Assembly: GCA_951799425.1 (NCBI GenBank) | Contig: OX637392.1 | Coordinates: 41,182,593-41,246,592, forward strand | DNA length: 64,000 bases | DNA from: Ilex aquifolium | Taxonomy: Eukaryota > Streptophyta > Magnoliopsida > Aquifoliales > Aquifoliaceae | Direction of reading: 5' to 3' | Part shown: positions 31,614-53,631 of the stretch, piece by piece | How the letters are laid out: every line of letters begins with the position of its first letter | Position numbering within the stretch: the stretch's first letter is position 1 | Notes under the pieces: generated by a model | Seen by the model: only the letters and a program-made list of their open reading frames with translations | Database searches by the model: none | What the model was told of the DNA's origin: nothing | Translations under genes and position numbers: made by a program

Positions 31614-31638
31614 AAAGTGGTATCAGAGCAAGGTTGTT

Positions 31639-34600
31639 ATGGCTACTATGAGTAATGTGCTTCAACCCCAATTTCCCAAATTGGGGAAAGATAATTATGG
31701 GAATTGGATTATTCAAATCAAAGTGTTGTTACAATCACAAGATCTTTGGGACATTGTTGAAAAAGGTTACATCGAGCCGACTACGGAGGAAGAACAAGCA
31801 CTTAGTGATGCTCAAAAGATGGTGCTTAAGCAATCAAGGAAGACGGATAAGAAGGCTTTATTCCTACTTTACCAATGTATTGACGATAATACTTTTGAGA
31901 AGATTTCTTCCGCCACCAACTCGAAGCAAGCTTGGAAAATTTTGAAGAGTATGCATAGAGGCATTGAAAAAACAATTCGGGTTCGTCTTCAAATATTGCG
32001 AAGTGAATTTGAAAGTTTGAATATGAATGAAGCCGAGTCAATTTCAGAGTATTTTTCAAGAACTTTGGTGATTGTGAATCAAATGTGAAGATATGGAGAA
32101 GATATTGATGATGTTCGTGTTATGGAAAAAATACTACGAACCTTAACCCCAAAATTTGAGCATGTTGTTGTAGCCGTTGAGCAATCCATGGATTTCAAGA
32201 CTACGAGCGTTGATGAATTGATGGCGACATTGGAGATACATGAGCAACGTATTAATAAAAAGACTTCAAGTTCTCTTGAACAAGCTCTCCAATCCAAGCT
32301 TTCTTTAAAAGATGAAAAAAGAGAATTTCAAGGTAGTACATCTCAAAGAGGAAGAGGTAATGAAACACGAGGTAGAGGTTATGGCAATCGAGGAAAAGGC
32401 TATGAAGGTCGTGGAAGAGGCTATGCTAATAGAGGTAGAGGAGGAAGAGACCAATTCACTAATGATGCAAGAAATCAAAATTCTTATGGTTCAAGAGGAA
32501 GAGGACGAGGAAGACCAAGAGGCAATTACAACAATCAAGGTTTTGACAAGAGGAATGTTGAATGCTTCAATTGTCACAAGTTTGGGCATTATAGCAATGA
32601 GTGTTGGGCAAGTGCAAATAAAAGTGTTGAAGAACATGTGAATTATGCCGAGAAAGCAAGTAATGAAGCGGCATCTACTTTGTTGTTGGCCTATGATGGA
32701 TCCGAGGAAGATAATGGCAACGTGTGGTTTCTTGATTCCGGGGCGAGCAACCATATGTGTGGCAAGAAGCATATGTTTGTAGAACTTGATGAAGTGGCGC
32801 AAGGCAAAGTTACTTTTGGTGACTCCTCCAACATTCCGGTGAAAGGCAAAGGTAAAATTCTTATTAAGCTCAAGAATGGCAATCATGATTTTATTTCCGA
32901 TGTATATTATGTGCCGGATATGAATAATAGCATTTTGAGTTTGGGGCAACTTTTGGAAAAGGGTTATGATATTAGCATGAAGAATCTCCACCTTACAATT
33001 AAAGATGCTCGTGGTAATTTGATTGCTAATGTGAAAATGTCCAAGAATAGAATGTTTCCTTTGAATATTCAACATGATGCTATGAGATGTTTGAATGCTA
33101 TGATTAAAGATGATTCTTGGTTGTGGCACTTGAGACTTGGACATCTTAATTTTGGTGGCTTGAAGCTTTTGTCTAGTAAGAAAATGGTGAAGGGTCTACC
33201 CTACATAGACCATCCAGATGAGTTATGTGAAGGGTGTATTCTTGGCAAGCATCACAGATTAAGCTTCTCAAGAGAAGTCAAGTGGAGAGCATCACGACCC
33301 TTGGAGCTTGTGCACACCGATGTTTGTGGTCCTTTGAAGCCTATGTCAAATGGTAAGAATCGCTATTTTCTTACTTTTATTGATGACTATAGTCGGAAGA
33401 CTTGGGTGTATTTTTTAAAAAGGAAGTCCGAAGTGTTTGAAGTTTTTAAGGAGTTCAAGAATCTTATTGAGAAGCAAAGTGGCTATTTTATCAAGAGGTT
33501 GAGATCCGATCAAGGTGGTGAGTATAGTTCCGATTTATTTGAAGACTATTGCAAGGAGCATGGAATTGTGCATCAATTCACGCCAAGCTACACACCTCAA
33601 TTGAATGGAGTTGCGGAAAGAAAAAATAGGACTATTCTTGATATGGCTAGAAGCATGTTGAAAGGAAAGAGATTGCCTAGAGAATTTTGGGCCGAAGCTG
33701 TAGCATGTGCTGTGTACTTGTTGAATCGATGTCCAACCAAAAGTGTTCGTTTCAAGACCCCGGAGGAAGCTTGGTGTTCATTCAAGCCAAGTGTAGCCCA
33801 TCTTAGAGTTTTTGGATGTATTGCTTATGCAAAGATTCCCGAAGTAAGGAGGACAAAGCTTGATGATAAAGGTGAAAAGTGCATTTTTCTCGGGTATGGT
33901 GATAGAACAATGGGCTACAAGTTATACAACCCCATTACCAAGAAAGTGATCATGACTAGAGATGTTATTTTTGAAGAGGAAGACATGTGGGATTGGAAAG
34001 AAAAAATTTCAGCCACCGAAGTGGAACTTATACTTGAAGAAGAAGAGTCCGAAGTACCAAGGGAAGTCCAAAGAGAGCCACAGACACCTCCACATGGATC
34101 CCCCTCATCTTCTACAAGTGAATCATCATCATCACCATCATCATCTTCATCATCGGATTCAAGTTCAAGTGAAAGACCAAGGAAAATGAGAAGTTTGCAA
34201 GAGATTTATGAATCTTCAGAAAATTTTGAAGGTAACTTGAATTTATTTTGTTTGTTTATGGATTGTGATCCTTTATGTTTTGAAGAAGCGGTTCAAGAAG
34301 AAAAATGGAGAATAGCAATGGAGGAAGAAATGAAGGCAATTGAAAAGAATGATACATGGGCACTAGTTAATCTTCCCCAAGGTCATAAAGCAATTGGTGT
34401 GAAGTGGGTATATAAAACCAAAAAGAATGCAAATGGTGAAGTCCAAAGATACAAGGCAAGGTTGGTTGCTAAAGGCTACAAGCAAAGGGCCGGAATTGAT
34501 TATGATGAGATATTTGCTCCCGTTGCTCGTTTGGAAACAATTAGGTTGATGATTTCTTTGGCAGCACAAAACAAGTGGAAGATTTACCAACTTGATGTGA

Positions 34601-35820
34601 AATCGGCATTCTTGAATGGATTTCTTGAGGAGGAGATTTATGTTGAACAACCTTTGGGGTATGTGAAAAAGAGACATGAAGATAAAGTGTACAAGTTGAA
34701 AAAAGCTCTCTATGGATTAAAGCAAGCACCGCGTGCATGGAATGCTAGAATTGACAAATATTTTCGTGAGAATGGTTTTCAAAAGTGTCCTTATGAGCAT
34801 GCATTATATATGAAGATGGATGGCAATGGAAGTGTGCTACTTGTTTGCCTTTATGTTGATGACTTGATCTTCACCGGCAATGATCCAATGATGTTTGATG
34901 GATTCAAGAGAAGTATGATTAAGGAGTTTGAAATGACTGATATTGGCTTAATGTCTCATTTCCTTGGCATTGAGGTTAAGCAAAGTGAAGATGGAATTTT
35001 TATTTCTCAAAGTGGCTATGCAAAGGAAGTGCTCAAGAAGTTCAAGATGGATTCTTGCAACCCGGTGAACAGACCCGTGGAAATTGGATTGGAATTGAGG
35101 AAGACCATTAGTGGTGGAAATGTTGATCCAACTTACTTTAAAAGTTTAGTTGGAAGTCTTCGGTACCTTACTTGCACAAGGCCGGACATTCTTTATGGAG
35201 TTGGCTTGGTTAGTAGATACATGGAAACACCGGATCAAACTCATCTTAATGCGGCAAAGAGAATTTTACGTTACATCAAAGGTACACTCAATGATGGCTT
35301 ATTTTATTCTTGCACTAATGATTTTAGACTTGTTGGATATTCGGATAGTGATTGGGGACGAGACTTGGATGAAAGGAAAAGTACATCGGGTTATTGTTTT
35401 TTCATGGGAGATACGGTTTTTACTTGGTCATCCAAGAAGCAAGCAATTGTTACTTTGTCTACGTGTGAAGCGGAGTATGTGGCTGCAAATTCAACGGTGT
35501 GTCATGCTGTTTGGTTGAGGAACTTGTTGAATTATTTGGGATTTTCTCAAGAAATTCCTACGGAGATCCTTGTTGATAATAGATCGGCGATGGCGTTGGC
35601 AAAGAACCCGGTATTCCATGAAAGGAGTAAACACATTGATACGCGCTACCATTTTATTAGAGAGCATGTGAAGAATGGAGAAGTGAAGTTGGTGCATTGC
35701 AAGACTCAAGATCAAGTTGCCGACATTTTTACAAAGCCATTAAAGCATGATGTGTTTGGAAGATTGAAAATGATGCTAGGCATGAGAACTCAAGGAATTG
35801 AGTTTAAGGGGGTATGTTAG
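31639..35820 (+). pseudogene. Copia gag-pol polyprotein region
   Basis: Order along the frame: gag starting MATMSNVLQPQFPKLGKDNY; an Arg/Gly-rich stretch; zinc knuckle [14 protein letters not shown] near 32570; protease with [11 protein letters not shown] near 32735; pre-integrase [11 protein letters not shown] near 33130; integrase core with [17 protein letters not shown] and NGVAERKNR (33310-33630); a Ser-rich linker; reverse transcriptase with YVDD near 34855; RNase H up to the end. The stop codon lies within the first bases of the right LTR. It is the standard Ty1/copia order with integrase before reverse transcriptase. The region appears to have about one break, so the copy may depend on others to move. 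Confidence 0.9.
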
Positions 35821-36374
35821 TTTTTATAAACTCAATTCTTAAAGGGTTGGTTTTGTATTTTTGGGTTTATGATAAGTCATGGTATTTGAAGAGGTAGTCA
35901 CTAGAAGTGTCCAAGGTATTTTTGGGAGGTCTATTTATGGTCTTGGGAGTCTTGTTCATGTATGGCTGCATGGGAAGTTGAACAGATTTTTCCTTGGGAC
36001 TGCCGGTCATTAAGTGGCCAAATTTAGGGTGCTTTGACTAGGAAAAATGAGTTAAAAAGGGGCTGAAGTTACTGCCCAAAACAGAATGTTCTGTGCAGAA
36101 AAAACAGAGGGAAAACAGAGAGAAAAAAACAGTGTGTTGCTGCCAGAAAAATCAGCAGCCTGTTCAAGAGCAGAAGCTCTAGTTGATAGCTTATTTTGTG
36201 AGTTTTTTCTTGCTTAAAAATCAGATTGTTCTACCCTTTGTATTCCTTGATATTGTGATCATTTTGGTTGAAATATAGATGTGTTTATTGAGTGAAATTT
36301 GTGTGATTGTGTAGCAGAATTTTATTCTCTGTTTTGCGTTCTTTGGTGATCCATTTTGCTTCCAATTTCCAACA
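35815..36374 (+). repeat. Right (3') LTR of the young copia element
   Basis: 560 bp, almost identical to the left LTR, followed by the TAAGT target duplication. Confidence 0.93.
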
Positions 36375-36379
36375 TAAGT

Positions 36380-37337
36380 GAGGTAACTGACTTAGAGACC
36401 TATTAGGCTTAGTAAGGTTTTGACTTAGTTTATAATTTGACTTTAGCACTACTCTCATATTTACACTAAAATTTCGTTGAAGCATATAATATTATATGCT
36501 TCAACGGTATAAGTGAGGTAATTGACTTTAGCTTCGATTTTGCTAGTGATCAATGAACCAATGTCAACAGTCCACTTACCAACTTATTCCTTGATTGACA
36601 CACCCCAATCAAAGAAATCCACCAAGAACTATGGTTCAGTACTCTTCTGTAAGATCAAATAATCTGTTATATACTAGTCTTTACACTATGACCTCACAAC
36701 TTTTGGATCGAATCATGCTTTTGATTCAATTAAAGGCTAAGTTTGCTATCTATAGCTTAAAATAATCCTTTTCTATCATTTAGCCTCTACCCTTCATGGC
36801 CTGCCTTTCTCTTTTATTTTAGAAAGAGTCCAGAAATTAAGGAAATCTCTGGTAAGGTTTCTCATATGCCTTCCTCTTGAATTGCCTGAAGCTTTCAAAT
36901 AGAGGTCTCTTGAAAACTAAGCGAGCACCTAATGTACGCCCATCTATAGATTCCGCTTGAGCACCTAATTACATACCATGACCTCTAATATAATTTGTAA
37001 ACAATCTTTCCAAGTGTGAACGCGTGGGTACTATATGGATCGCCCAAGTCTTGGTCAAGTCCGACTTTGAACCAAATTACCAACTAGTTATCTTGGTTAC
37101 TTCCGTCGTCAATCTTCGTTGCTCGTTGACCCAATGGACTCAAGACTCAACACATCTGATTCATGTAATTATGCTAACGCACTAATTCCCAACAATCTCT
37201 AATGGACGATTTTCGGATTGTTCAATTGTGGATAGTTTGGAAATGCATAATTCAATGTCAAGTTAGTAGCCATTTGCTTTAGTGTATTCAGGGAGATTTT
37301 CTCATAAAAATTTATATATTGTGTATATTTTTTTTCA
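36380..37337. other. Spacer with a perfect 32-bp palindrome
   Basis: No gene is recognised. At 36475-36506 there is a perfect palindrome with half-arm CGTTGAAGCATATAAT and no loop. The sequence ATAAGTGAGGTAA(C/T)TGACTT occurs on both sides of it (36374 and 36510). Confidence 0.5.
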
Positions 37338-38101: not shown

Positions 38102-39471
38102 TTAAAGTTTTGCACAATAACTGTCTATTGGAACGTTGGTGCATATCAGTTATATATATATACACACACACAATGAATTCAAAATAAACACCATGATGTA
38201 ATTGAAAATCAATAAATCCTAGTATTTAAATTGATAAAATTTTATAAGAAAATTAAGAAGTTTTAAAAAAATTTATTTTATTCTTACAATCCCCAAAAGT
38301 TTTTAAAACTTTGAAATATCTCAAAATATTTATGAAAATATATATACATAGGAAATAGGGCAACTATAGTTCTGTGCAATGGGTGTAGGTGTCTTCCGGA
38401 CTTGAACCTCACTTAGTTTTAACAGTTTCCCCATAAATGATCATAGTGACCAAAGGCTTGAACTAGACCCATTAGACCAGAGTTCAACAGGTCACACACA
38501 CACAGTACCGATGTTTGTTAAGATTCGCGGGGCAGTACTATTAACGGTCATGCACTTGATCTTGATTAATCTCATAAAAGTTTCTAGAGAATAACCCAAT
38601 TCTCATAGTCGTGGTCTCACGACAGCTCTCACTTAGGTGAGCCCTTCAAGGATACATGCGCACGATACTCTGCAAGAGTGTTCTTTTTTCGGTCTCATTC
38701 AGGGTATGAAAGCTTCCTTACCGTCACACTATGGATGCACTTCTGCCATAGGGATGAGCAAAAAAATATCTCATCTTGGATATTTCCTCAATAACAATGC
38801 TAATGAGTCACACAGTATTGAGTGTTTTTACCCATTGAACTTCCTTCATGGGGTCCCCAATCACAAAAGTTGGGTTACCTCCTTATGTGACTCTTTGTGG
38901 GCTTAAGTTCATCCCTCTCGACAGTTCTAAGACTACTTTCCTTGAAAGCCCTTTAGTTAGTTGATTAGTTATATTTAGCTCACACTTCACAAGTCTAGTG
39001 AGATTATGCTTTTACTCAACATTTTCTTTACTGATTTATATCTCACTTGTATATGTCTATTCATCTTTTTATTATTATGATTATGCTTCACAAGCTTAAT
39101 CACTGTCTTTCTGTCACAGTGTAATGAAATGGCGGCATAAGTTTTTCCACTAGAGGTATCTCAAGTAATAAGTTCTTAATCCACTCAGCCTCAGTGCATG
39201 TGGTAACTAAGGCTATAAGTTCTGACTCCATAGTACTTCTTGATATTATGGTTTGTTAGATACCCAAGATATGGCTGCTCCTCCTAACAAAAAGACATAA
39301 CCAGTAGTGAATTTTATATTTAAACTATTAGTGATCCAATTTGCATCAGTGAAGCCCTCAACCACACTTGAAAATCCACTATAACATAAAAGATTAGTCT
39401 AAGGTTCCTTTAAGAAACGTAAAGACTCTGTCTAAGGCAATCCAATGCTCTTTACTTGGACTATAAGTGTA
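38102..39471 (-). mobile_element. Old copia: RNase H part and 3' non-coding part
   Basis: Minus-strand translation of 39471-39100 shows RLSRYTYSPSKEHW, GYVFLLGGAAISW and the following RNase H motifs in copia order, and continues toward the LTR. It is fossil sequence with many breaks. The same gene resumes at 53235, past the Tat element. Confidence 0.6.
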
Positions 39472-39476
39472 CCTAC

Positions 39477-40169
39477 TGATGGTGTAAATCCACAGAGATG
39501 AGCTATGGAACTAAATTGAATGGCATAAACAATCTGCGTGGGGATTGGTAGGGCGTCTGAGCTACAAGGCACATGAAGTGGTGGGTGAATGTTCTAATTC
39601 ATGATGTATAGCGTGTGAAAATACAATAGAAGTATAGTGGTTCACCGGCTAGTGAGCTCGGCTAATCCACTCTCTAATTGAGACTCTTACTCCCTTGTCT
39701 TTATTGATGAAATTGAATGTGTTACAGTAGAATTATTCGAGTCTTCCCGTTTCTGGTTGTTCTCCCCCTCTTTTATGGCCTCATGCTTACCTCTAACGCG
39801 GAATTACCTCCCATATTAAAGGGATTGTGCCCTATCTTCATCCATAATTCCGGAGTTACCTAAACTCCATATGGCTGGCTTCAAACGGAGAGTTCTTTGC
39901 CTTCTTTCGTGGGATTCTCCTTAGCTTTAGGAGGGGATCGTGGTTGATTACGGGTCTTATGCCTTGGAATGGTTCTACTTTCCTTTTAGTGATATCCGTA
40001 GTTACCTTGCTGTCCTTTCACCATTTCTTAACTCGTGTCCTCAGCTGGGAGCTCACAGCGTTGACTAGATGAGCTCTGGCCAATGCCAGATGAGCTCTGC
40101 CTCTTCTGTCTGAGCTCCCGACCTGGGCTCATTTCCTGAGCTCGTGTCTGTTCATCTCAGGTATCATCA
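39477..40169 (-). repeat. 3' LTR (left in window) of the Tat element
   Basis: 693 bp, paired with 52537-53229, flanked on the left by CCTAC. Confidence 0.95.
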
Positions 40170-40183
40170 GTTGCCCCCCAGCC
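40170..40183 (-). promoter_or_regulatory. Polypurine tract of the Tat element
   Basis: In minus reading GGCTGGGGGGCAAC directly precedes the 3' LTR, the expected place for the plus-strand primer of reverse transcription. Confidence 0.7.
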
Positions 40184-40817
40184 CTTGCCTTAGGTTAGCC
40201 TGGGCAGGGGCTGATCTACACGAACTGAATTAGACCCGCACGTGGCCAGCATGTGGCTTTAGGATTTTTGACGGTTTACAGCAATCATGTCTTTCCTTGA
40301 TTCCCGCGCATGTCTTTGCCCACGTCCCTCAAGCTTTAAAGACCCAAACGACTACCTGAACCGTCTTTTCACACTATTCATCTTCCTCGCTGCTCCTTGT
40401 CTCCATTCTCTCTGCGATTTCGGACCATTTTGCTTGAGCCTTTCTGTTTTCTTGCTTGAAATCGGATTCCCTACCCTCGTTTCGAAGATTCGCATCGCCT
40501 TCTTCCTCTGACAGTGTTCCAGGCTATTGTTGCCGCTATTCCTGAGTTAGGTACGTTCCTTGCCCCTTCCTCTTCCTTCTTTTGCTCTGGATCCCTCGGA
40601 TTCGAGGTGGTTGCTTCATTTCTGGGCTTTTCGATTCTTTTATTTTTGGAATCGTGACCGTTGTTTAGCCCTCCTTCCTCATTTCGTTGATTGGAGCTCT
40701 ATAGCTCACATCCTTGCCATCGGAAGTTACTGTGCCGACCCAAGGGTTATTAGGGAGTGTCTGACCCGTGCTCCTTCGCTTTATCGTTCCTTTAACCTTC
40801 CTTTTTCTCTTCCTATC
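40184..40817 (+). other. Leader region of antisense gene 1
   Basis: Between the polypurine tract and the likely start at 40818. An open frame in phase with the gene begins earlier, at 40560, so the true start could be either codon. No convincing TATA box was picked out. Confidence 0.35.
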
Positions 40818-43443
40818 ATGTCTGCCTCTTCTGGGGCCACTCGCTCCTCTGTTTCACTTTTAGGGGCTAGGTCAGCCGAAGAGGATTCCGAACTAGGGGA
40901 GGTGGGTGACGAGATAGACAACTTCCCTGGGGTGGACGCCGTTGATTCTGAGGTTAATACCGAAGAGCCTCCCTCAGCGTCCCCCTCCGTGCCTCCTAGG
41001 CCAGACAAGGGCAAAGGCAAGGTCAGCGGAGTCGGGGTTGAAGGGAAGACCTCATATTTAGGGCTTGCCTTTAAGCATGCCGAGTCGGTGGGCTATAGTA
41101 AAGAGCACCCTGAGCTGATGAAAGTTTATAAGCTTCGTTACGGCTTTCCTCCTGGGGTCGAACCCTGGTGCTCAGACAAATCTGTCTACTATGTAGAACA
41201 AGTACACAACAGGGTCTGCTTCTTTCTTGCCTCCTTTGAGAACGGTCTTCGCTTTCCTCTGCACCCCTTCATTAAGGCTATTCTGCAACATTTCCATGTG
41301 TGCCCTTCCCAGGTTTCCCCCAATTTCTATGGTGTCATGGTTGGTCTTCTAGCCATCTTTAAGAAGCATAAGCTTGGGCTTCCCAGTGTTTCTTTGTTTT
41401 TGGAGCTCTTCAACGTCAAGCCGACCTCTGGAGGCTTCTTGTATGCCTCTAAGCGTGCCAACGTTAGGCAGCTTATCTCCAACATTCCGACCTCTCATAA
41501 GCACTGGAAGGAACACTTCTTTTTTGTTGGGGGCATCAATTGGGAGTATAATCCCGCTGATAGGACGGATACTCTTGGTATCCCTACAGCCTGGGCTGAA
41601 CCAGACAACTTGCGTGAGTCTTTTCTCAAGTCAACTTAGCTCTGACCTGGAACTGGCAGACCTTTTGTCTTTTTCTTATTTGCTTACTTTCTTCTTTTCA
41701 GGTGATCGTCTAGAGCTCAGCCCTGAGGATAGGGAATTGCTAGTGGAGTTGGAGAAGATCAAGCCAGAGAGGTACGCTGACCTCATTGAGTCACGAAATT
41801 TGGTGCGGATAGGTCTGAGTCCTCCCGAGGTGACCTTGGCGATCCCGTTATCGGTTTTAGGAGCTGACGAAGGTACCTTTTTTCTTTTCCTCTTCATTGT
41901 GCCTCCTCCCCTTCTTTTTCTCCTTACATCTCCCTATTCCCCCCAGATATTCCGGGTTCTTCTACTATGAAGTCTACCCCAGAAGAGCTCCAGGCCAAGG
42001 TGGATGAGCTGGTGAAAGGTGGTAGATCCAGCAAGCGCAAGTCCCGGGTTAGTTCTGGGAGTGGTCCCGGTACCCGGGCTAAAATTCCCAGATTAGAGGT
42101 GTCTTCTCCCCCCACTGTAGCTGAAGGACAGGTTCCAAGCAAGGCTCTGCCCTCCTCCTCTGGGACTCCACAATCCACAATCCCCCCCTCCCCTCCAGTG
42201 GCTCCTTCTGAGTTGGCGTCTGCTCAAGAGGGGGGGCAGGCTTCCCCTTCCTCTTCTGAGGTCGAGAAGGCTTTGAAACTAATTCCCGACCTCCAACCCT
42301 TAAATTTCAAGTATAGTGCCTCGGGGAAGGTGATTGAGAAAAAGGGGGAGGATGAGGACTCCTTTTTTGACAACATGGACCTTGCTGCTGGAGCTCTGTC
42401 CTCTATTTTTTCTGAATCTGATGTCTTGAAGGCTGCTTCCATGCCCCTCGAGGAATCCATCTCTTCAGCTCTTCAGGGGGTGGCTGCCGTAAGTGCTGGC
42501 CCCTTTTCCCCTTTGTTTATTCGTATTTTACGGTCTGATGTAATTTTCTGTTCTTTCTTTATATTCTCAGGCTGCCCTTCATACGAGAGGTCTGCTGCAC
42601 CGGGTCCAGTCTCAAGAAAGCTCCTTTAAAGTTCTGAAGACATATAAGGCCAAAATTTCTGAATTGTCTCTTGAGAATGAGGGCCTTAGAACTCAGAATG
42701 AAGACCTCAGAGCTCAGGTGGAGAACCTGAAAGAGCAATCGGTGAAGCAAGCTTCCTACCTTAAGCATACATTGACCGTCAAGGCCAGAGCTGAGGAAGG
42801 GGAGAAGAGAGCTCAGGACGAGCTGAGGCTGGTTAAGGAGGACCTGCAGCTTAAGGTTGAGGCGTGGACCAAGGCCAGCCAGGAGGCTTTTGACGCCAAG
42901 AAAGAGCTCAGCCAAGCCAAGCAAGACTATCTTGCCCTCAATGAAGCAAACGGCAAACTCTGTGAGGAGCTTGAGGAGCAGAAAAACTTGGTCACACAGA
43001 AAAGTAAGGAGATTACCGAGCTTAAGGATGAGGCCACCACTTTGTGGGCTACTGGGTGGGTTGCTTTTAGGCGTAAAGCAATCAAAGCTTACCCAGATCT
43101 CGCATTCAATTTCCCTATCCCTACTGAGGAGGAAATGGAAGAATCTGACTCTAGTGGTGAGGAAGACAACTCAGCTCTTCCTCCTGTAGCTCCACTCCCA
43201 GATGCCTCTGCTTCCCCCTCTACTGTTCTTGCTGTGGCCTTATCTGCTGTCCTGGTGACTAAGGTACCTGAACAAACAACATTGCCTGGTACGGCAGAGG
43301 CTCCTGGGGTCAATGTTTCCGTAAATTCCACTCCTCCGGCATCAGGATCCTTGCCCCCTGAGCTCCTGGGTTCTGCTTCTCCTGCTGATGCTATGTCTGC
43401 CGAGCTGCAGGGTCTTCTGTCCACTCCCCCTTCAGAAACTTAG
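40818..43443 (+). CDS. Antisense accessory gene 1 of the Tat element, PF04195-like, intron-containing
   Basis: This lies on the strand opposite gag-pol. It starts at MSASSGATRSS (40818; an in-phase ATG is also at 40560) and appears to have four exons separated by short introns with GT-AG borders, ending at 43443. The first exon has an acidic, Ser/Pro-rich head, then NGLRFPLHPFIKAILQHF and a long globular part. This resembles the 'putative gypsy type transposon' domain (Pfam PF04195, Transposase_28), found in antisense frames of Tat/Retand-type elements. The third exon is Ser/Pro-rich with a basic SSKRKSR patch; the last exon has a long coiled coil (SLENEGLRTQNEDLRAQVEN) and an acidic, Pro/Ser-rich tail. 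Its function is unknown to me. Domain recognition is by eye. The open, regularly bordered blocks indicate selection or a very recent origin. Confidence 0.75.
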
Positions 43444-44592
43444 GTCTTTTTGATTGTAATTTTTTTTGTAAAGAATTTTTGAGATGTAACTTTGACTTGG
43501 GCTAGGGCCTTGTGCTACTTTGTAATTTCTTTGTTATTTTGTTTTTTCATTGCTGGTTTATCATGTTCATATGTCCCTTCGAATTCCAGCACATATATGT
43601 TTTTGAATATATCTTTGAATTTGCGCACCTGTATGTATTCAACTTTGTATACTCCCCTTGTCCCCTTTTGCTTTGAGGGGTGCTGTGCACTTCTTGAAGC
43701 AAACTTACTAGATTTGAAGGGTACAGGAGACTTGGTGCTATGCTCAATTGCTTTTCCTTAGCCTTTTAAGCTCAGTGGTTGGCACCCTAAGAATCCATTA
43801 CTTATCCTTCTTCGTTTTGAGCAACTCAGACTGATATTCTGAACTGGCGTGCTCCTTCCGGGTTGCATAGCTCATGCTTGTGAATTCTTGCTGAGCTATG
43901 CAGCTCTTCTTTCCGAACCTAAGAGCTCTTACTGCGCTTTTTAACTCTTTTTGTTATCTTAAGAGCTCCTTCTGAGCTACTCGGCTCAGTTGTCTGACCT
44001 TAAAGGTTATTTCTGAGCTTCATTGCTCTTTCGACAGATCTCTTTCTGGAATAGATAACAAATCCTAGTGGCCTTCTTTGAGCAAGGCTATGAACTTTCA
44101 CCTGCTGTCAAGTTCCCTTGATGAACTGAAGAAACTATTAAGAGCTATTCCTCTTTAAGGTGAACAGGGCTGTTATGATCGCCGGCCTTAAAGACTTGCT
44201 ATGCCGGTGTCTTGTTTTTGACTGGGCTGAGCTAAAATGTGGAGGATATGTGGCTTGGTGGGGTCAGAATGTTCCGTTGTTGTCTTGAATGCAATATAAG
44301 GGGTGATCCTGTACGTATTTCTTTTCCCTCGTTTTTTCTCTCAACCGTTTCCCATAACCGTCACGTCTTTTCCCTTTCCATAACCGCAACCCCTTTCCAT
44401 AACCGTAGCCTCTTTCCATAACCGTAGCCACTTCCCATAACCGTAGCCTCCTTTATTAATTCAGAAACTACACAGGCAACTTGATTCCCTCTTTCTTGGT
44501 TCTTGGTTTCCTGAAAAGCTCCCAACTTTTCCTAACATATTTTTGACTCTCTTCTTGATTTCTTGCGTCTTTTTCCCTTACCAGCACTTTCG
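43444..44592. other. Spacer between the two antisense genes
   Basis: No open gene is recognised. It is rich in GAGCTC, AGCTC and GAGCT words (43800-44060). Just before antisense gene 2, at 44342-44450, a unit of about 18 bp with core CCATAACCGTAGCC is repeated about five to six times. Confidence 0.6.
44342..44450 (+). promoter_or_regulatory. Tandem CCATAACCGTAGCC boxes upstream of antisense gene 2
   Basis: Five to six direct repeats each contain TAACCG, which resembles plant MYB-type binding cores (AACCG/AACNG). They end 143 bp before the ATG at 44593. The position suggests a promoter role for the antisense gene; this is inference from motif and location only. Confidence 0.4.
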
Positions 44593-45682
44593 ATGGCTGC
44601 CCCTGCTTCTTCTTTGTTCCAGGAACGATCCTCTTTCGGAATCGGATGGAATTGGCATTGTCGCTATCTGTCCCCTTCAGTACTTGAATCTTCTGATTTG
44701 GTGGACATCAAAAAACGGTTTTTTCCTTATCTTGACTTGCCTTTGCGAGTCCCTTCCTCCGATGAGCCTTGCAACTACCTCCCCCGAGGGGAAGTCTGTT
44801 TCTTTGAAGGTGCTATGGACATGGGACTTCGCTTTCCCATTCATCCGGCCCTTGGGCGAGTTCTTGCCTACTATGGCCTGTGCCCTTCTCGCCTTTCTCC
44901 ACGAGGGTGGGCTGCTATGGTAAGCTTCTTCTTGTTCTGCCGCCTGCATGCTCTTGGCAGGTTCCCCTTTGTCTCTGAGTTCCTGTACTTCTTTGAGATT
45001 GAGGAAGATGATGCCCCCTGCTTCAGTTTCTTTCGTTGGAAGGATGTCAATTTACGCCCTTTGGTTCTAGATCTTCCCTCCAATCCTGAAGGGTGGTCTA
45101 AGCGTTTCTTCTTCGCCTCTGGAGGGTCTTGGAGGTCTCCTGAGGATCGCTGTCGTAAAGCTAGGATTCCTCGGTCCTGGAAGAGCTTCTCTCGCATTGG
45201 TAAGCTCGAGCTGAGCTCTTTTGGATATTTCTCCTTTTAAAGATATGCTCTTACTATGTCTCTGCTGCGCAGATCCACCTGATCTGGATTTACCAGGGAT
45301 GGTGAATATCAACGAGTTGCTGCTTGTGGAGTCCAAGACTTATTCCGAGCTGATGACGAGTGCAAACCTCTATTTGCTTGGGGCTGAGGCTACTGAGTTT
45401 GAGTTCTCCACTATTCCTTACCCTTCTTGGACCTCTTTCTCTGATTCTGATGAGGACGGGGGTTCTGACAAGGATGGAAACACCGTCACGAGTTCAAGGA
45501 AGCGTAAGAGGGATGACTCTCCTTCTCCTGACTCTTTGTCCACCATTTTTCTTACCTCCATTGGTCAGAAGCTCCTTGACTTGCTTTACAAGGCTGAGCA
45601 AGAAAGGGATGAGCTGAAGAAAGAGAATGCTAGCCTGAAGGGAGAGGTTGCTGAGCTAAGATCTGAACCTAAGAAAGACTAG
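44593..45682 (+). CDS. Antisense accessory gene 2 of the Tat element, PF04195-like, intron-containing
   Basis: This is a second plus-strand gene, starting MAAPASSLFQERSS at 44593 and apparently with two exons split by one short GT-AG intron near 45200-45272; it ends at 45682. The first exon holds GLRFPIHPALGRVLAYYGLCPS, HALGRFPFVSEFLYFFEI and WSKRFFFASGG. These align in order with GLRFPLHPFIKAILQHFHVCPS, LGLPSVSLFLELFNV and WKEHFFFVGG of antisense gene 1, so the two are diverged paralogues. The second exon has an acidic Ser/Asp stretch, a basic SSRKRKRDD patch that could be a nuclear signal, and a C-terminal coiled coil. It is shorter than gene 1. Function is unknown. I rate the paralogy as well supported by eye and the family name as likely. 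Confidence 0.7.
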
Positions 45683-46287
45683 GATCTTTGTTCTCCTGTA
45701 TTTTTCTTTCTTTTCCTGAACGATATCGGACTATGATTTTTTTTATACTTGTCCGCACGTTTATTTTCTTGGATATTCTGAATTCTAGTTTGTTCATTCT
45801 TGAGAATGCAAGCCCACATACGAGCTCTCTGTGTTTGAAATACGAACGTAGAAGGAAAACAGAAGATCATGCTTGCACTGACCTTAGTTCCTGACTAGTC
45901 TCAGAGATCAGTCCACGAACATTGATGGAAAACAGAAAATCATGTTTGTGCTGACCTCAATTCCCAACTGGTTTCCATTGGTCGTACCACGAGCGTTGAT
46001 GGAAAACAGAATATTATGTTGGTACCGACCTCACTTCCCATCTGGCTCTGCGAGCGCTCTCTGCCGCACTGGACATTTTAGGGTGTTCGAGGGTGTAGCC
46101 AGTGCATAAGGTGTCTCTAAGAAGAGTTCTTCCCTTAATCTGACTGTTGGTGTCTCAAAGAAGAGTTCTTCCCTTAATCTGACTGTTGGTGTCTCAAAGA
46201 AGAGACCAGTCTTGAATTCTACGAACCTAGAAGCTTGTACGCGCCGAGGAGTTGTAGAACTCATCTTGTTTTTGGGTAAGCTTGGAA
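45683..46287 (-). repeat. Short tandem repeats of 73-74 bp and 39 bp
   Basis: Units starting GGAAAACAGA lie at 45854, 45927 and 46001 (73-74 bp apart). A 39-bp unit starting GTGTCTC lies at 46111, 46150 and, in part, 46189. The 39-bp repeat is a codon multiple and is crossed by an open minus-strand frame (46031-46264), whose ATG overlaps the stop of the next frame upstream in an ATGA arrangement. Whether it is translated is unknown. Confidence 0.7.
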
Positions 46288-46935
46288 GCTTATCGCTTGT
46301 ATATGAGCTGAAGAGCTCATTTTATATTTATAAGCTTTGAAGCTTATCGTTTGCTTATGAGCTGAAGAGCTCATATTGCATTTATAAGCTTTGAAGCTTA
46401 TCGTTTGCTCGTGAGCTGAAGAGCTCATCTTGCATTTATAAGCTTTGAAGCTTATCGTTTGCTCGTGAGCTGAAGAGCTCGTCTTGCATTTATAAGCTTT
46501 GAAGCTTATCGTTTGCTCGTGAGCTGAAGAGCTCGTCTTGCATTTATAAGCTTTGAAGCTTATCGTTTGCTTATGAGCTGAAGAGCTCGTCTTGCATTTA
46601 TAAGCTTTGAAGCTTATCGTTTGCTTATGAGCTGAAGAGCTCGTCTTGCATTTATAAGCTTTGAAGCTTATCGTTTGCTTATGAGCTGAAGAGCTCGTCT
46701 TGCATTTATAAGCTTTGAAGCTTATCGTTTGCTCGTGAGCTGAAGAGCTCGTCTTGCATTTATAAGCTTTGAAGCTTATCGTTTGCTTATGAGCTGAAGA
46801 GCTCGTCTTGCATTTATAAGCTTTGAAGCTTATCGTTTGCTCGTGAGCTGAAGAGCTCCTCTTGCATTTATAAGCTTTGAAGCTTATCGTTTGCTCGTGA
46901 GCTGAAGAGCTCCTCTTGCATTTATAAGCTTTGAA
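46288..46935 (-). repeat. Twelve-unit 54-bp tandem repeat, open as an 18-residue repeat
   Basis: Twelve units of 54 bp, with minus-strand translation SFKAYKCKTSSSAHEQTI and a few substitutions, form an unbroken 226-codon frame (46261-46941) 61 bp downstream of the gag-pol stop. Each unit contains two dyads: ATAAGCTT-TG-AAGCTTAT and GAGCT-GAAG-AGCTC. Unit length is exactly 18 codons and none carries a stop. A relic of the same repeat lies in the older relative at 15480-15560, so it is a family feature. It could be a structural or regulatory RNA/DNA element, or a coding repeat; which is undecided. Confidence 0.9.
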
Positions 46936-47002
46936 GACCATTAAAGGGTGAATAGAGGACTTGCTCTTTTTTATTTAAAAGTAGTTCTATTACAGGTAAT
47001 AC

Positions 47003-50000
47003 TTACTGGAAAAACTTCTTAAGGTGCTCGGCATTCCATGAGTGAGGTAAAACCTTTCCTTCCTCTGTTTGTAACTCGTAATTCCCTGGTCTGATTATCC
47101 TTGACACGATATAGGGCCCTTCCCAATTGGGTCCCAATTTCCCATGCGTGGGATCCTTTCTCGCAAGCAGAAGCCTCCTAAGTACCAAATCTCCAACCTT
47201 GAAACTTCTGTGTCTTACCCTCCTGTCATAGTACCTTGCAGTTTTCCTTTGGTAAGCTCGGACACGGTGCAGAGCTCTGTCCCTCTTCTCTTCCAAGAGA
47301 TCGAGGTTTAGCAAGAGAGACTCATCATTGTGCTTGGAATCTGCAAACTCCACCCTTGGTGATTGGAGCCCTATCTCCACTGGGGCCACTGCCTCGGTTC
47401 CAAAGGCCAAAGCAAAGGGGGTTTCCTGAGTCGCAGATCTGGCGGTGGTCCTGTAGGCCCACAATACCTCCGGAATGTACTCCACCCATTTGCCTTTCAG
47501 GTTTTCTAGCTTGGTCTTCAAAGCTGACTTTATTGTTCTTATTGTGACCTCTGCCTGTCCATTAGACTGGGGATGGGCAGGAGCTGAGAAATAGTTTTTG
47601 ATTCCGAGCTCAGCACAAAAATTTTTGAACTTTGAATTATCAAACTGCTTTCCATTGTCAGATACGAATGCTCTGGGAACTCCAAACCTGCAAACTATCG
47701 ATTTCCAAACGAAGTTTTGAACTTTCTGCTCTGTGATCGTTGCCAAAGGTTCGACCTCTGCCCATTTAGTAAAGTAATCCACTCCTATGATGGCGAACTT
47801 GCACTGTCCCACACCGGTGGGAAGGGGTCCCAGAATGTCCAACCCCCACTGTTGAAAAGGCCATGGGCTTACCACCGAGGTTAGGAGCTCGGGAGGACAG
47901 TGGGACATATTGGCATGCTCCTGGCAAGTTTTACATTTTCTTACTAAGTCAGTAGCGCTTTTGAGCATGGTGGGCCAATAATACCCTTGCCTCAGTACTT
48001 TTCCTGCCAAGGCCCGAGCTCCTATGTGATTGCCACATATCCCCTCATGCACCTCTCTGAGTATGTAATTAGCATCTTCATCTCCTACGCACTTAAGGAG
48101 AGGCGTTGAGAATCCTCGTTTATACAGGCTTCCTTGGAGTAGGGAGAATCTAGCTGACCTGGTCCTCAACTTGGATGCCTCCTTAGTATCTCTTGGCAGA
48201 GTCCCATTTTGCAAGTATCCGATGATGGGGTCCATCCAGCTTGGCTGAGCTTCAACCGACAGCATGTCCTCTTCATTGATGCTTACTGAAGGCCCCGGGA
48301 GGTGCTCCACTGGAATTAGCCTATCCAAATCCTCTTGCGAGGCAGTTGCTAACCTTGCCAGGGCATCTGCTCTTGAATTTTCCGTTCTAGGCACGTGTCT
48401 GACCTTAACCTGCACAAACTTTTTCATTAGTTCTCGTACCTTTTTGAGGTAAAGGATCATCTTTTCGCCTCTTGCCTCGTAACATTCTTCTATCTGCTTC
48501 ACCACCAGCTGAGAGTCACTGCAGATCTCCAGCTGCTCCGCTTCCATAGAATGGGCAAGATTGAGCCCAGCGATGACAGCTTCGTATTCTGCTTCGTTAT
48601 TTGAAGCTCTGAACCCAAATCTAAGGGCGTACTCGACATCTATTCCTTCTGGAGAGGTCAAGATCATCCCTGCGCCGCTTCCCTGAGCATTAGCAGCTCC
48701 ATCTACCGAAAGCTTCCAGATGGGGAGGTCTGGTATTAAATCTGTGGTCTCCATAGGAGCTGCTGCTGTGAACTCTGCAATAAAATCTGCCAAAATTTGT
48801 CCTTTGATGGCAGTTCTTGGCTTATACCTAATATCAAATTCGCTGAGCTCCACGGCCCATTTAACCAACCTCCCCGAGGACTCTAGCTTGTGAAGTACTT
48901 GCTTCATTGGCTGATCTGTTGGAACCTCGATAGTATGAGCCTGGAAATAAGGTCTAAGTCTCCTAGCTGTTGTAACCAGAGCTAGAACGAGTTTTTCCAT
49001 TTTTGGATATCTCTCTTCTGCCCCCCTCAGAGCTCTGCTACAGTAGTAAACTGGTTGCTGAGCTCTGTCTCGCTCCCTAACCAGGGCTGCACTTGTTGAA
49101 AAATCTGAAACCGCTAAGTAGAGGGTGAGGACTTCCCCTTCTAAAGGGCTCACCAGAACAGGAGGAGAGCTCATATATTTCTTTAGGGCTTCGAATGCTT
49201 CTTCACACTTGGCATCCCATTGGAATGCCTTCTTCAATATCTGAAAAAATGGCTGGCATTTATCGCTGGACCTAGACACAAAACGGCTCAGTGCAGCTAT
49301 CCTACCTGTCAATCGTTGCACCTCTTTTGTGTTGGATGGTGATTTCATTTCCACCATTGCTTTAACCTTTTCTGGATTGGCCTCAATCCCTCTGCTGCTG
49401 ACTATAAAGCCCAGAAATTTTCCAGCAGAGACCCCAAATGCGCACTTCACAGGGTTTAGCTTCATTTTGTACTCCTTTAGAATTCGGAATGACTCGGCTA
49501 AGTGCTCGATGTGGAGCTCTGCCCTTAGTGATTTCACTAGCATGTCATCAATGTAAACTTCCATGGACGTTCCTATTTGCTTCTGGAACATTTTATTTAC
49601 TAACCGCTGGTAAGTGGCTCCAGCGTTCTTCAATCCGAAGGGCATGACCTGATAACAATATGTCCCTTGTTCTGTTACAAAGGAGGTCTTTTCTTGATCG
49701 CTGGGATCCATCTTGATCTGGTTGTAGCCTGAGAAAGCATCCATGAAACTGAGGAGCTCGTGCCCTGCTGTGGCATCCACTATTAGGTCAATCCGAGGTA
49801 AAGGGTAACTGTCCTTGGGGCATGCTCGGTTGAGATCAGTGAAGTCGATGCACAGTCGCCACTTCCCATTGGTTTTCTTTACAAGAACTACATTTGCTAG
49901 CCAGGTGGGGTAATCAATCTCCCTGATAGCCTTGGCATGGAGGAGTTTACTGACCTCCTCATTGATTGCCTTTTGTCTTTCAGAGGCAAAGCTCCTCCTC

Positions 50001-52474
50001 TTCTGTTTGATGGGTTTGCAAACTGGGTTCACGCATAACTTATGGGTAATGACCGAAGGGTCAATTCCTTCCATGTCTTCTTGCTTCCAAGCAAACACTC
50101 CTACATTCTCTTTTAGGAACCGGATGAGGAGTCCTTTGAGCTCAGCGTTCAGTTTGGACCCCATATAAACAAGATGTTCTGGCTTCTCATCCAGCTGAAC
50201 TGGTTCCAGCTCTTCCGATGGTATTGGTCTTGTCTCCATTTCATCTCTCATGTCGAGTTCGTCTAGTTGGATATTCTCCACTTCCTTCCTTTTTATGGAA
50301 GCCATGTAGCATTCCCGTGCTACGCGCTGGTCTCCTCGGACCACCCCGATTCCATTTTCCGTAGGGAACTTCACGACTAAGTGATAGGCAGATGGGATTG
50401 CCTTCATAGAATTCAGAGATGGCCTTCCAAGCAAGATGTTGTATGCCGATGGCGCATCGACTACTAGGAATTTAACAGTGGTAGTGGCTTGGCAAGGTGG
50501 ATCCCCTAAAGTGAGCACGAGTTGGATTGAACCTTGGGGGAGGACCCTTTCCCCAGAGAATCCCAGCAAGTGAGTGCTTACTGGCTCAAGTTTCTCCCTT
50601 CCTATTTCCATCTTGTCGAACGCAGGTGCGAAGATAATATCTGCCGAGCTTCCGTTATCAATTAGAACCCGATGAACGGTTCTATTTGCCACCACAGCTC
50701 GTACCACCAATGGATCATCATGGGGGTATTGGCACCCTTCTAAATCAGCATCTGAAAAAGTGATAGCTGTATCTAAGCGTGGTGCTTTGGATACAGCGTG
50801 CACTTCGAGAGCTTCTTCGGCTCTGATCCGCCGGAGGTGCGCCTTCCGAGCTGAGCTTGACTCTCCACCTCCAGCGAACCCTCCAGATATCACTCTGATT
50901 TCCCCTAGAGGCTGTTGGTGTGGTGCGGGTGCTGGCTGCCGAGGTGGTGGTGGTGGAAGAGCTCGGTTCTGGTTGTCGTTGGCTACAAAACGACGCAGCT
51001 GACCTCGCTGGATCAAAAACTCGATTTCCTTCTTTAGTTGAATGCAATCATCAGTGTGGTGTCCATGATCCCTGTGATAATCACAGTATTTCGTGGGGTC
51101 TCTCTTTGCCGGGTCTGCCTTCATCCGAGGCGGCCATTTCAAGAACTTCTCATTTTGGACCTCATACAATACTTGTGACACAGCGGCAGTGAGCGGGGTA
51201 AAACGCTGAGGTCCATATCTGGGCTGTAGTTCAGGCTGCATGGGTCCCAGACGATCTCTGACATTTCCTCTTCTCTTGGGTGAGCGGTCTCTATCCCTCC
51301 TTGGGGACCTCTCCCGCCCTTTCTCCTTCCTGGGACTTCGGTCCCTTCTCTTTTCTTCTTTTTCCTTGTCCTTTCGTGAGGATGTATCTCCCACCTTAGA
51401 AAGGAGTGCCTCTTTGCCATTTATATACTTCTCTGCCTTGGCTAACACCTCAGCCATACTTGCCTGAGGGTTCTTTGATATAGAGAACATCAAATCTTTT
51501 GACTGCACTCCCAATCCGGCAATGAAAGCTGTTATGGCAAATTTTTCGTCAGGGACGTCCACCTTCAACGTCTCTGAATTGAACCTTTGGACATAAGACC
51601 TCAGGTTCTCTTGGGGTCCCTGCTTCACGTTCAACAGGTGGTAGCTGGGCTTTCTGTATATCCGGGCTCCTATAAAGTGGGACACGAAAGCTATGGAGAG
51701 CTCTTTGAAGGATGAGATCGAGGCTGGTGGGAGCCTATGAAACCAGTTCAAGGCGGATCCTTTCAAGGTAATGGCAAAAGCTCTGCAGCGCACGGGATCC
51801 TGATATCCATGTAACTCCATCTGGTTCTTGTAAGTGTTGAGATGATCCACAGGATCTTTCGTTCCGTCAAAGACCTCTATCTGTGGCGTTCTAAACTTCG
51901 GTGGGAGTGGAAAATGTAGCACTCCAGTGGTGAATGGAGATTCGGTTTGCTGTACCAAGACATCCATTGTAACCGGGGCCTTGCTCTTCACCGCCTCCTT
52001 CATGTGGCTGAGCTCCTGTTGCATGTCTTTGAAACGTTGCTCCCAACGTTGCTCTTTCCTGTCCGGCGGATGGGGAAAAAATTCATCCCTATCACCCCCA
52101 TTATTCTGACTTAGCACCTCGTCGTTATGGCCGTCCCTAGGAGGTACATAAGGAGCATACCCCCTGGGGTGGCTGCTTTCTCCTCCTTCACTGACCTCTC
52201 TGAGGGGGTCCCAGTGTCGCCGTTCCCGGTAAGGGGGATTACTCTGGCCTTCTTGGGCCGGTCGTGCCTCCTGTGGGCGTTGCATGAGCTTCGTTAACTC
52301 TTCGTTTTCTTTCAGCAAGCGTTGGTTGACGAGGCGAAGGGCCTCTAACTCGTTATTGATGGGGGAATTAACCTCTGGGATATTCTCGGGTTGTCTGCCG
52401 TTGGTAGCTTCCAGTGGGTCTTGCATTCGCGGTAGGTTTGTTCGGCTTCTGCTCATATTTCGTGTCGTTACCAT
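47003..52474 (-). CDS. Gag-pol polyprotein of the Tat element
   Basis: This is a single 1823-residue frame. In order: gag domain about residues 200-330 (GTKDPVDHLNTYKNQMELHG); an Arg/Ser/Asp-rich basic stretch about 365-410; a Cys/His cluster YCDYHRDHGHHTDDC about 463-477; aspartic protease with LIDNGSSADIIF about 604-615; reverse transcriptase about 830-1060 with YIDD at 974-977; first RNase H about 1115-1215; second, archaeal-type RNase H about 1255-1380 (VDGAANAQGSGAGM, NNEAEYEAVIAG); integrase zinc finger about 1470-1520; and integrase core about 1545-1642. The C-terminus is GPNWEGPYIVSRI...WNAEHLKKFFQ with no chromodomain. Order and dual RNase H are characteristic of the Tat clade. The frame looks whole. 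How gag and pol are balanced from one frame is not evident. Confidence 0.95.
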   Translation of the reverse strand: MVTTRNMSRSRTNLPRMQDPLEATNGRQPENIPEVNSPINNELEALRLVNQRLLKENEELTKLMQRPQEARPAQEGQSNPPYRERRHWDPLREVSEGGESSHPRGYAPYVPPRDGHNDEVLSQNNGGDRDEFFPHPPDRKEQRWEQRFKDMQQELSHMKEAVKSKAPVTMDVLVQQTESPFTTGVLHFPLPPKFRTPQIEVFDGTKDPVDHLNTYKNQMELHGYQDPVRCRAFAITLKGSALNWFHRLPPASISSFKELSIAFVSHFIGARIYRKPSYHLLNVKQGPQENLRSYVQRFNSETLKVDVPDEKFAITAFIAGLGVQSKDLMFSISKNPQASMAEVLAKAEKYINGKEALLSKVGDTSSRKDKEKEEKRRDRSPRKEKGRERSPRRDRDRSPKRRGNVRDRLGPMQPELQPRYGPQRFTPLTAAVSQVLYEVQNEKFLKWPPRMKADPAKRDPTKYCDYHRDHGHHTDDCIQLKKEIEFLIQRGQLRRFVANDNQNRALPPPPPRQPAPAPHQQPLGEIRVISGGFAGGGESSSARKAHLRRIRAEEALEVHAVSKAPRLDTAITFSDADLEGCQYPHDDPLVVRAVVANRTVHRVLIDNGSSADIIFAPAFDKMEIGREKLEPVSTHLLGFSGERVLPQGSIQLVLTLGDPPCQATTTVKFLVVDAPSAYNILLGRPSLNSMKAIPSAYHLVVKFPTENGIGVVRGDQRVARECYMASIKRKEVENIQLDELDMRDEMETRPIPSEELEPVQLDEKPEHLVYMGSKLNAELKGLLIRFLKENVGVFAWKQEDMEGIDPSVITHKLCVNPVCKPIKQKRRSFASERQKAINEEVSKLLHAKAIREIDYPTWLANVVLVKKTNGKWRLCIDFTDLNRACPKDSYPLPRIDLIVDATAGHELLSFMDAFSGYNQIKMDPSDQEKTSFVTEQGTYCYQVMPFGLKNAGATYQRLVNKMFQKQIGTSMEVYIDDMLVKSLRAELHIEHLAESFRILKEYKMKLNPVKCAFGVSAGKFLGFIVSSRGIEANPEKVKAMVEMKSPSNTKEVQRLTGRIAALSRFVSRSSDKCQPFFQILKKAFQWDAKCEEAFEALKKYMSSPPVLVSPLEGEVLTLYLAVSDFSTSAALVRERDRAQQPVYYCSRALRGAEERYPKMEKLVLALVTTARRLRPYFQAHTIEVPTDQPMKQVLHKLESSGRLVKWAVELSEFDIRYKPRTAIKGQILADFIAEFTAAAPMETTDLIPDLPIWKLSVDGAANAQGSGAGMILTSPEGIDVEYALRFGFRASNNEAEYEAVIAGLNLAHSMEAEQLEICSDSQLVVKQIEECYEARGEKMILYLKKVRELMKKFVQVKVRHVPRTENSRADALARLATASQEDLDRLIPVEHLPGPSVSINEEDMLSVEAQPSWMDPIIGYLQNGTLPRDTKEASKLRTRSARFSLLQGSLYKRGFSTPLLKCVGDEDANYILREVHEGICGNHIGARALAGKVLRQGYYWPTMLKSATDLVRKCKTCQEHANMSHCPPELLTSVVSPWPFQQWGLDILGPLPTGVGQCKFAIIGVDYFTKWAEVEPLATITEQKVQNFVWKSIVCRFGVPRAFVSDNGKQFDNSKFKNFCAELGIKNYFSAPAHPQSNGQAEVTIRTIKSALKTKLENLKGKWVEYIPEVLWAYRTTARSATQETPFALAFGTEAVAPVEIGLQSPRVEFADSKHNDESLLLNLDLLEEKRDRALHRVRAYQRKTARYYDRRVRHRSFKVGDLVLRRLLLARKDPTHGKLGPNWEGPYIVSRIIRPGNYELQTEEGKVLPHSWNAEHLKKFFQ

Positions 52475-52520
52475 CAGTCACTGAAAGATCAGCTTATTTG
52501 TAGAAGGAACAGTCGTTCCC

Positions 52521-52536
52521 ACAGACGGCGCCAAAC
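52521..52536 (-). promoter_or_regulatory. Primer-binding region of the Tat element
   Basis: In minus reading GTTTGGCGCCGTCTGT directly follows the 5' LTR, at the usual place for tRNA priming. The TGGCGCC core is common in plant Ty3/gypsy elements; I cannot name the tRNA with confidence. The older relative has nearly the same sequence at 21096-21111. Confidence 0.65.
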
Positions 52537-53229: not shown

Positions 53230-53309
53230 CCTACTTAGTCTCTATATGGCATACAAGTTAATGGGGCTTAGGGAGGCCGGTACCTCCCTAAAAACTTAAT
53301 AGGATAAAA

Positions 53310-53563: not shown

Positions 53564-53631
<68 letters not shown>

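Follow-up and report, generated by a model that had tools for sequence, protein, structure and literature searches.

In recently active clusters of Retand, a lineage of Tat retrotransposons, antisense open reading frames (ORFs) of the TRP28 family (Transposase_28, PF04195) lie between pol and the 3' long terminal repeat (LTR) in 97% of cases, and about half of the clusters have tandem arrays (Vicient, 2025, PMC11963269). The same source describes TRP28 as predicted to bind DNA and counts 104 antisense ORFs across 63 clusters, which means that more than one per element has already been reported; an earlier survey placed a Transposase_28 domain in 23% of Retand elements (PMC6317226). Similar antisense accessory genes are gene23 of maize Grande, ORF3 and ORF4 of Silene Retand, the latter holding PF04195, and ORF2 of PvRetro13 (PMC7264820; PMC11728184). 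The Grande gene23 product is located in the nucleus and is expressed from a promoter of its own, and antisense and spliced transcripts have been called for as something to look for (PMC7264820). A regulatory role has been proposed for the antisense ORFs (PMC7264820; PMC11963269). VANC proteins of VANDAL elements remove DNA methylation and bind a short motif whose copies cluster in non-coding regions and in fast-evolving tandem repeats (Hosaka, 2017, PMC5735166). Here, we describe a 64,000-nucleotide stretch of Ilex aquifolium DNA (assembly GCA_951799425.1, contig OX637392.1, positions 41,182,593 to 41,246,592; hereafter the window, in whose coordinates all positions are given), in which a complete minus-strand Ty3/gypsy element of the Retand type carries two intron-containing antisense genes for paralogous TRP28 proteins.

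A reading made from the letters alone (the sequence-only reading) had placed two such genes opposite a single open gag-pol frame of 1823 codons. That frame is found at 47003-52474 on the minus strand, and the antisense orientation of the genes stands; they do not overlap the frame, their coordinates being separate, and adjoin it within 40170-47002, between pol and the 3' LTR. Gene 1 (40818-43443) has four exons and encodes 793 amino acids, gene 2 (44593-45682) has two exons and encodes 338, and every junction is in frame, in agreement with the GT-AG borders that had been proposed. The rows mentioned below are those of an alignment of the window with 19 copies of the antisense region from the same genome (20 were fetched and one, L047, was left out). 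The gene features are:

40818-41613, plus strand: gene 1 exon 1, PF04195 domain; 796 nt in 20 of 20 rows
41614-41701, plus strand: gene 1 intron 1, phase 1; GT..AG in 20 of 20 rows, length 85-88 (85 or 88)
41702-41872, plus strand: gene 1 exon 2; 171 nt in 20 of 20 rows
41873-41946, plus strand: gene 1 intron 2, phase 1; GT..AG in 20 of 20 rows, length 74-88
41947-42488, plus strand: gene 1 exon 3; length 541-557 among the 20 rows
42489-42570, plus strand: gene 1 intron 3, phase 0; GT..AG in 20 of 20 rows, length 58-84
42571-43443, plus strand: gene 1 exon 4 and stop, possible coiled coil
44593-45199, plus strand: gene 2 exon 1, PF04195 domain; 607 nt in 20 of 20 rows
45200-45272, plus strand: gene 2 intron, phase 1, at the position of gene 1 intron 1; GT..AG in 20 of 20 rows, length 72-93
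45273-45682, plus strand: gene 2 exon 2 and stop, RKRKR patch, three leucines at intervals of seven residues; 410 nt in 20 of 20 rows

Both first exons score higher than the curated PF04195 threshold of 26.2 bits (gene 1, 35.8 bits, E 9.5e-9; gene 2, 39.3 bits, E 7.5e-10), so the family membership suggested earlier is borne out. In a two-sequence comparison the spliced proteins are 30% identical over 221 amino acids (E 2e-27), and the alignment continues across the common phase 1 intron into the downstream exon. Such an alignment would be hard to obtain unless the introns were real and older than the duplication; judged from their sequences, genes 1 and 2 are old paralogues, as expected of the duplicated and diverged pair that had been supposed. 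The peptide motifs quoted for the two proteins (GLRFPLHPF and GLRFPIHPA; HFFFVGG and RFFFASGG) are present in the order claimed. Long open blocks had been claimed as well: the plus-strand stop-free runs in 40170-46248 reach 362, 299, 253, 234, and 205 codons, and the longest run in 200 dinucleotide shuffles is at most 204. A codon preference trained on gag-pol selects the modelled frame in six of six exons, with scores of only 0.03 and -0.11 per codon for the first exons of the two genes.

Two further properties ascribed to both proteins hold in part. A basic patch, RKRKR, is matched by pattern in gene 2, whereas the pattern has no match in gene 1, where SKRKSR was spotted by eye. C-terminal coiled coils are suggested by one heptad run in gene 1 and by leucines at 317, 324, and 331 in gene 2; against this, the Pfam coiled-coil matches fall below the cut-off and the heptad pattern has no match in gene 2. 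Comparison with solved structures gave only matches at E 0.08-0.11 to a tRNA deaminase-like protein, which were taken as chance. Searches of viral contigs found no relatives of gene 2 exon 1, of a 500-amino-acid piece of pol or of the 20-base primer-binding pattern, and searches of plasmids none of gene 2 exon 1. A TATA-like word precedes gene 1 in all nine rows printed. Just upstream of gene 2, at 44372-44454, lies a 19-bp tandem repeat (CCATAACCGTAGC...), which is found in all nine rows printed with varying copy number and is possibly part of the gene 2 promoter.

The open blocks are conserved in other family members, as the sequence-only reading required of real genes. Among the best 144 of 8129 candidates for gene 1 exon 1 in the genome, 140 have no internal stop; for gene 2 exon 1, an internal stop interrupts 15 of the best 150 out of 7367. 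All four introns keep GT..AG throughout the alignment while their lengths drift, one copy (L054) having a 58-nt intron 3 with a damaged donor context, and no row is intronless. The first two exons of gene 1 and the two of gene 2 do not vary in length across the rows. The gene 2 coding sequence measures 1017 nt in every row and is stop-free in 18 of the 20 (exceptions L040 and L042); the gene 1 frame is intact in 16 (exceptions L043, L046, L049, and L055), one of which carries an in-frame deletion of 411 nt. The omitted copy L047 matches only to 43283, where a second LTR follows, and its 7 kb showed no gene 2. Read along the genomic sense strand, the introns are CT..AC; they are therefore not introns in the genomic RNA and would be copied unspliced in each round, whereas splicing can act on the antisense message. 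Given what is known of the life cycle, the antisense introns would thus be passed on faithfully, in line with the earlier remark that they are invisible to the sense RNA. Transcription of both genes is presumed, and their splicing is probable in view of the sequence conservation.

The ratio of nonsynonymous to synonymous divergence (Ka/Ks) was calculated for nine of the 19 copies against the window, chosen among intact frames; the comparisons are not independent. Between subfamilies (eight comparisons), gene 1 has ratios of 0.17-0.26 and gene 2 ratios of 0.17-0.24; four comparisons among copies give 0.15-0.33. The same-subfamily copy L041 gives 0.95 and 0.69, with too few changes to tell. These ratios indicate that genes 1 and 2 are real and under purifying selection. 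Silent divergence (Ks) is lower in gene 2 than in gene 1 of the same copies (0.23 versus 0.87 in L056, and likewise in L057), and the copies therefore look like mosaics that arose by recombination among subfamilies between both genes.

The pair recurs in many copies of the element in this genome. For at least 88 of the 144 listed gene 1 matches, a listed gene 2 match lies 3.0-5.7 kb downstream on the same strand, and the same pairing occurs in at least 14 of the first 52 PF04195 matches listed. L001 belongs to another family; it shares 67% identity with the window in gene 1 exon 1 and 92% in the adjoining gene 2, a comparison in which the pair has a fast-changing and a slow member. In L002 gene 1 exon 1 is 57% identical, in an alignment that includes a translated intron. 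Introns 1 and 2 of gene 1, read by eye, stand at matching places in both L001 and L002.

The locus resembles the described Retand antisense TRP28 ORFs in its position between pol and the 3' LTR, in orientation, in PF04195 and in the neighboring tandem array (Vicient, 2025, PMC11963269). Its single gag-pol ORF is as in 59% of the published clusters, and its pol-3' LTR gap of 6,833 bp slightly exceeds the published range of 2,933-6,566 bp (PMC11963269). Two TRP28 genes per element, as present here, are not described in the accessible text of that study, and neither PMC11963269 nor PMC7264820 uses the word "intron" in its accessible text. Likewise, a spliced paralogous pair is not described for Grande gene23, Retand ORF3/ORF4 or PvRetro13 ORF2 as far as the accessible texts go (PMC7264820; PMC11728184), although Silene ORF4 shares PF04195 with both genes here. 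The idea that the pair elaborates on the single antisense frame usually noted is thus sustained by the TRP28 pairing and the introns, whereas multiple antisense ORFs as such were already in print (PMC11963269). The Tat clade element Ogre also has an intron, but between gag-prot and the rest of pol and in its own transcript (PMC6317226). A spliced antisense TRP28 pair was not found in the literature searched, which covered neither the original Grande gene23 paper nor the Steinbauerova 2011 paper on extra ORFs and for which GAGCTC, a hexamer discussed below, was not a search term; parts may be in print. New relative to print would be the pairing of two TRP28 genes and their introns. The conserved introns, the pairing and the purifying selection strongly indicate that proteins, not just transcripts, are selected in this genome, and surveys based on ORFs that ignore introns would fragment such genes. 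A further likeness, by description, is with HBZ of human T-cell leukemia virus type 1 (HTLV-1), a spliced antisense retroviral gene whose product has a leucine zipper. HTLV-1 HBZ is named as nuclear in a passage on antisense genes (PMC11963269).

The palindrome GAGCTC is a candidate target of these proteins. It occurs 51 times in the 13,753-bp element, with 12 occurrences inside a 54-bp tandem array downstream of pol. Outside the array its density is 29.9 per 10 kb, compared to 0.92 elsewhere in the window (43,479 bp, not counting an old Tat relative); in the element, the densest of the 14 other palindromes of equal composition (10 lacking CpG, four containing it) stands at 5.4 per 10 kb. Non-coding sequence of the element, the array excepted, holds 10 sites where 0.9 are expected and 200 dinucleotide shuffles yield at most 5. 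Five sites in the LTR are arranged with regular spacing, as follows:

40049-40143: five GAGCTC in the LTR end that reads as U3, with spacings of 22, 21, 20, and 26 bp

These five sites are kept, in order, in 14, 20, 17, 18, and 17 of the 20 rows, and a sixth LTR site is kept in all 20. L001 has four GAGCTC with spacings of 21, 20, and 26. In the four diverged copies tested (of 19), 6, 6, 5, and 4 of the six LTR sites are kept against a background of 53, 55, 23, and 18% of LTR hexamers (binomial probabilities 0.02, 0.03, 0.003, and 0.01, not independent). Arrays of 54 bp bearing GAGCTC are also present in L059-L062, copies from three other subfamilies.

The results for coding DNA are mixed, so that the case for GAGCTC rests mainly on the non-coding DNA. 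Using a strict shuffle that preserves the protein, codon use and the dinucleotides at codon junctions, the 14 sites in gag-pol (5.3 expected) and the eight in gene 1 (3.1 expected) were reached in none of 200 shuffles each, and in one of 150 when the gene 1 run was repeated. Gene 1 of four other copies holds 7-8 sites against 2.0-2.8 expected, a count reached by at most 2 of 150 shuffles. The codon shuffles disfavor GAGCTC as a pure coding by-product, with GACCTC behaving alike. Across the 800-Mb assembly, triples of GAGCTC with gaps of 12-22 bases number 4678, against 58 for the backwards pattern. The spacer survey covered the first 50 places listed, which all lie within the initial 9 Mb of one contig, and the pattern allowed spacings of 18-28 bp. 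Among the 59 distinct spacers, 19 belong to the array type, 17 of them measuring 27 bp and two 26; of the other 40, nine measure 13 bp and come from an extra site within the gap, and 27 of the remaining 31 measure 20-22 bp.

Taken together, a palindrome spaced by two helical turns in the promoter region, possible coiled coils and a predicted DNA-binding domain fit dimeric regulators that bind their own element. The accessory cassette would consist of two tandem, spliced antisense genes for paralogous TRP28 (PF04195) proteins, both expressed from promoters within the pol-3' LTR region. Both proteins would enter the nucleus, where dimers would bind element DNA at GAGCTC, chiefly at the phased LTR cluster and the 54-bp array, and so adjust transcription or silencing of the element; sequence cannot tell activation, anti-silencing and restraint apart. 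We hold this proposal as a whole tentatively, as one that falls somewhat short of probable. The phased clusters would offer a concrete candidate ligand to a protein family for which none is known, and if the link between protein and motif is true, retrotransposons would have a sequence-specific system of self-regulation or anti-silencing. A narrower version, in which the slow and the fast TRP28 protein pair on the two-turn-phased GAGCTC of LTR and array and keep the element unsilenced as a form of Retand self-recognition, we consider doubtful. If true, it would give LTR retrotransposons a counterpart of VANC and explain why Retand keeps both antisense TRP28 genes and tandem arrays.

The likeness to VANC lies in a transposon accessory protein combined with a short motif that recurs in clusters, both in the non-coding DNA of the element and in tandem repeats (PMC5735166). 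VANDALs are DNA transposons (PMC12844716), whereas the element here is an LTR retrotransposon; VANC has DUF1985 and proven binding, whereas binding here is a guess, and the VANC21 motif is mainly non-coding, whereas GAGCTC is found in coding DNA too (PMC5735166). Genes 1 and 2 are not shown to be members of the VANC family; a Pfam scan of six plus-strand pieces gave no DUF1985 match with an E value of 1 or less.

Several observations weigh against self-binding at GAGCTC. The gene 2 coding sequence contains no GAGCTC at all, GACCTC is enriched in gag-pol and gene 1 at least as strongly, and under the strict shuffle GAGCTC ranks third among the 6-mers of gag-pol and outside the top eight of gene 1, with some shuffles giving an equally high maximum score over all 6-mers. 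The backwards control word, CTCGAG, holds a CpG and is expected to be rare anyway, which makes it a weak control for the genome-wide count. The spacers of the phased clusters vary but look related, as if from the same type of element readable in either orientation, and the 31 are not independent; part of the phasing may thus have been left behind by ancient tandem duplication. The same motif is found in families that differ by a third in gene 1, whereas the motifs of the VANC system change between families. The TATA-like word preceding gene 2 is absent from three of the nine rows printed, and the predicted structure of gene 2 exon 1, from a two-row alignment, has a mean predicted local distance difference test score of 37.8, too poor for judging DNA binding or for use as a search query.

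Some of these points are what would be expected if GAGCTC were a site for a host transcription factor, a palindrome by which RNA dimerizes or is packaged, or a remnant of repeated tandem duplication, with some other target for the TRP28 pair. An RNA signal or sequence bias could explain the enrichment inside the coding DNA of gag-pol and gene 1, and array units carry the motif through copying, and the phased spacers look related. In the four tested copies the LTR cluster is nevertheless retained more than local identity would predict, and the pol frame of a young copia element in the same window has no GAGCTC in 3,699 bp; we regard this explanation as unlikely. It is also rather unlikely, though deserving serious attention, that the proteins are nuclear accessory factors for another step, such as entry of the pre-integration complex or choice of the insertion site, and that GAGCTC is unrelated to them. 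A role in retrotransposition including nuclear entry has been suggested for antisense ORFs (PMC7264820), gene 2 has its RKRKR patch, and the selection on the genes is independent of the motif; the missing pattern match for a basic patch in gene 1 tells against such factors, which would moreover leave the phased LTR clusters and the arrays across subfamilies unexplained.

Explanations that dispense with the proteins fare worse. Antisense transcription itself might act through double-stranded RNA formed with the genomic RNA, limiting the element and making the frames by-products, a possibility raised beside a protein role (PMC7264820). Ka/Ks near 0.2, exons of constant length and frames conserved across drifting introns disfavor this, and after the selection test we consider it very improbable. 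That the frames are open by chance, with no gene behind them, is refuted by the Pfam matches, the paralogy across the intron, the selection and the run lengths beyond those of the shuffles, and its probability is negligible.

The element that carries the pair spans 39477-53229 and has the following parts:

39472-39476: target-site duplication CCTAC, left copy, the same 5 bp flanking both LTRs
39477-40169, minus strand: 3' LTR, 693 bp, two differences from the other LTR
46277-46936: 54-bp tandem array with 12 GAGCTC inside
47003-52474, minus strand: gag-pol, single open frame of 1823 amino acids, with gag, reverse transcriptase, RNase H, RVT_3, and integrase domains (Pfam)
52516-52535, minus strand: putative primer-binding region, presumed from its position
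52537-53229, minus strand: 5' LTR, 693 bp, two differences from the other LTR
53230-53234: target-site duplication CCTAC, right copy, the same as the left copy

The description of a young and whole element is confirmed by these borders. Target-site duplications of plant LTR elements are usually 5 bp long, as is the CCTAC on both flanks here. At a substitution rate of 1.3e-8 per site per year, the two LTR differences correspond to an age of about 0.1 million years. In gag-pol, RVT_3 (1257-1375) sits between RT_RNaseH (1117-1213) and Integrase_H2C2 (1469-1520), which places a second RNase H-like domain there, read here as an RNase H of the archaeal type. Retand shares with Ogre an additional RNase H-like domain placed ahead of integrase and behind RNase H (PMC6317226), and the placement here fits both subclades; the absence of an intron splitting gag-pol, unlike in Ogre, fits Retand. 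Two antisense TRP28 genes occupy the pol-3' LTR region, where Retand elements have such a gene. From domain order, unsplit gag-pol and antisense TRP28, the element is assigned to the Retand lineage of Tat. The 54-bp array makes a whole number of codons, and the minus strand is open there for 237 codons (46261-46974), giving a repetitive peptide right after pol. The element may itself lie inside an old copia remnant (flanks 38637-39471 and 53235-54739), with a copia-like reverse transcriptase frame at 54230-54739 on the minus strand.

Elsewhere in the window, an older Tat relative occupies 14921-21678 on the minus strand, with a gag-pol 73-75% identical at the DNA level to that of the young element and a 5' LTR at about 21113-21678; no 3' LTR was found. 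At 15504-15560 it has two 27-bp units resembling the array of the young element, and tblastn at E up to 0.01 found no antisense genes in it (about 15.5-21.7 kb of the window). Long direct repeats flank this relative on either side (9905-14920 and 21679-30013), and pieces of them are 86-96% alike; within the right-hand repeat, at 23172-25552, there is a 1,189-bp tandem duplication that is 99.9% identical. The young Ty1/copia element whose pol was compared above extends over 31054-36380 on the plus strand, with LTR pieces of 566 bp that are 99.5% identical, a gag-like frame and an open pol of 1232 amino acids.

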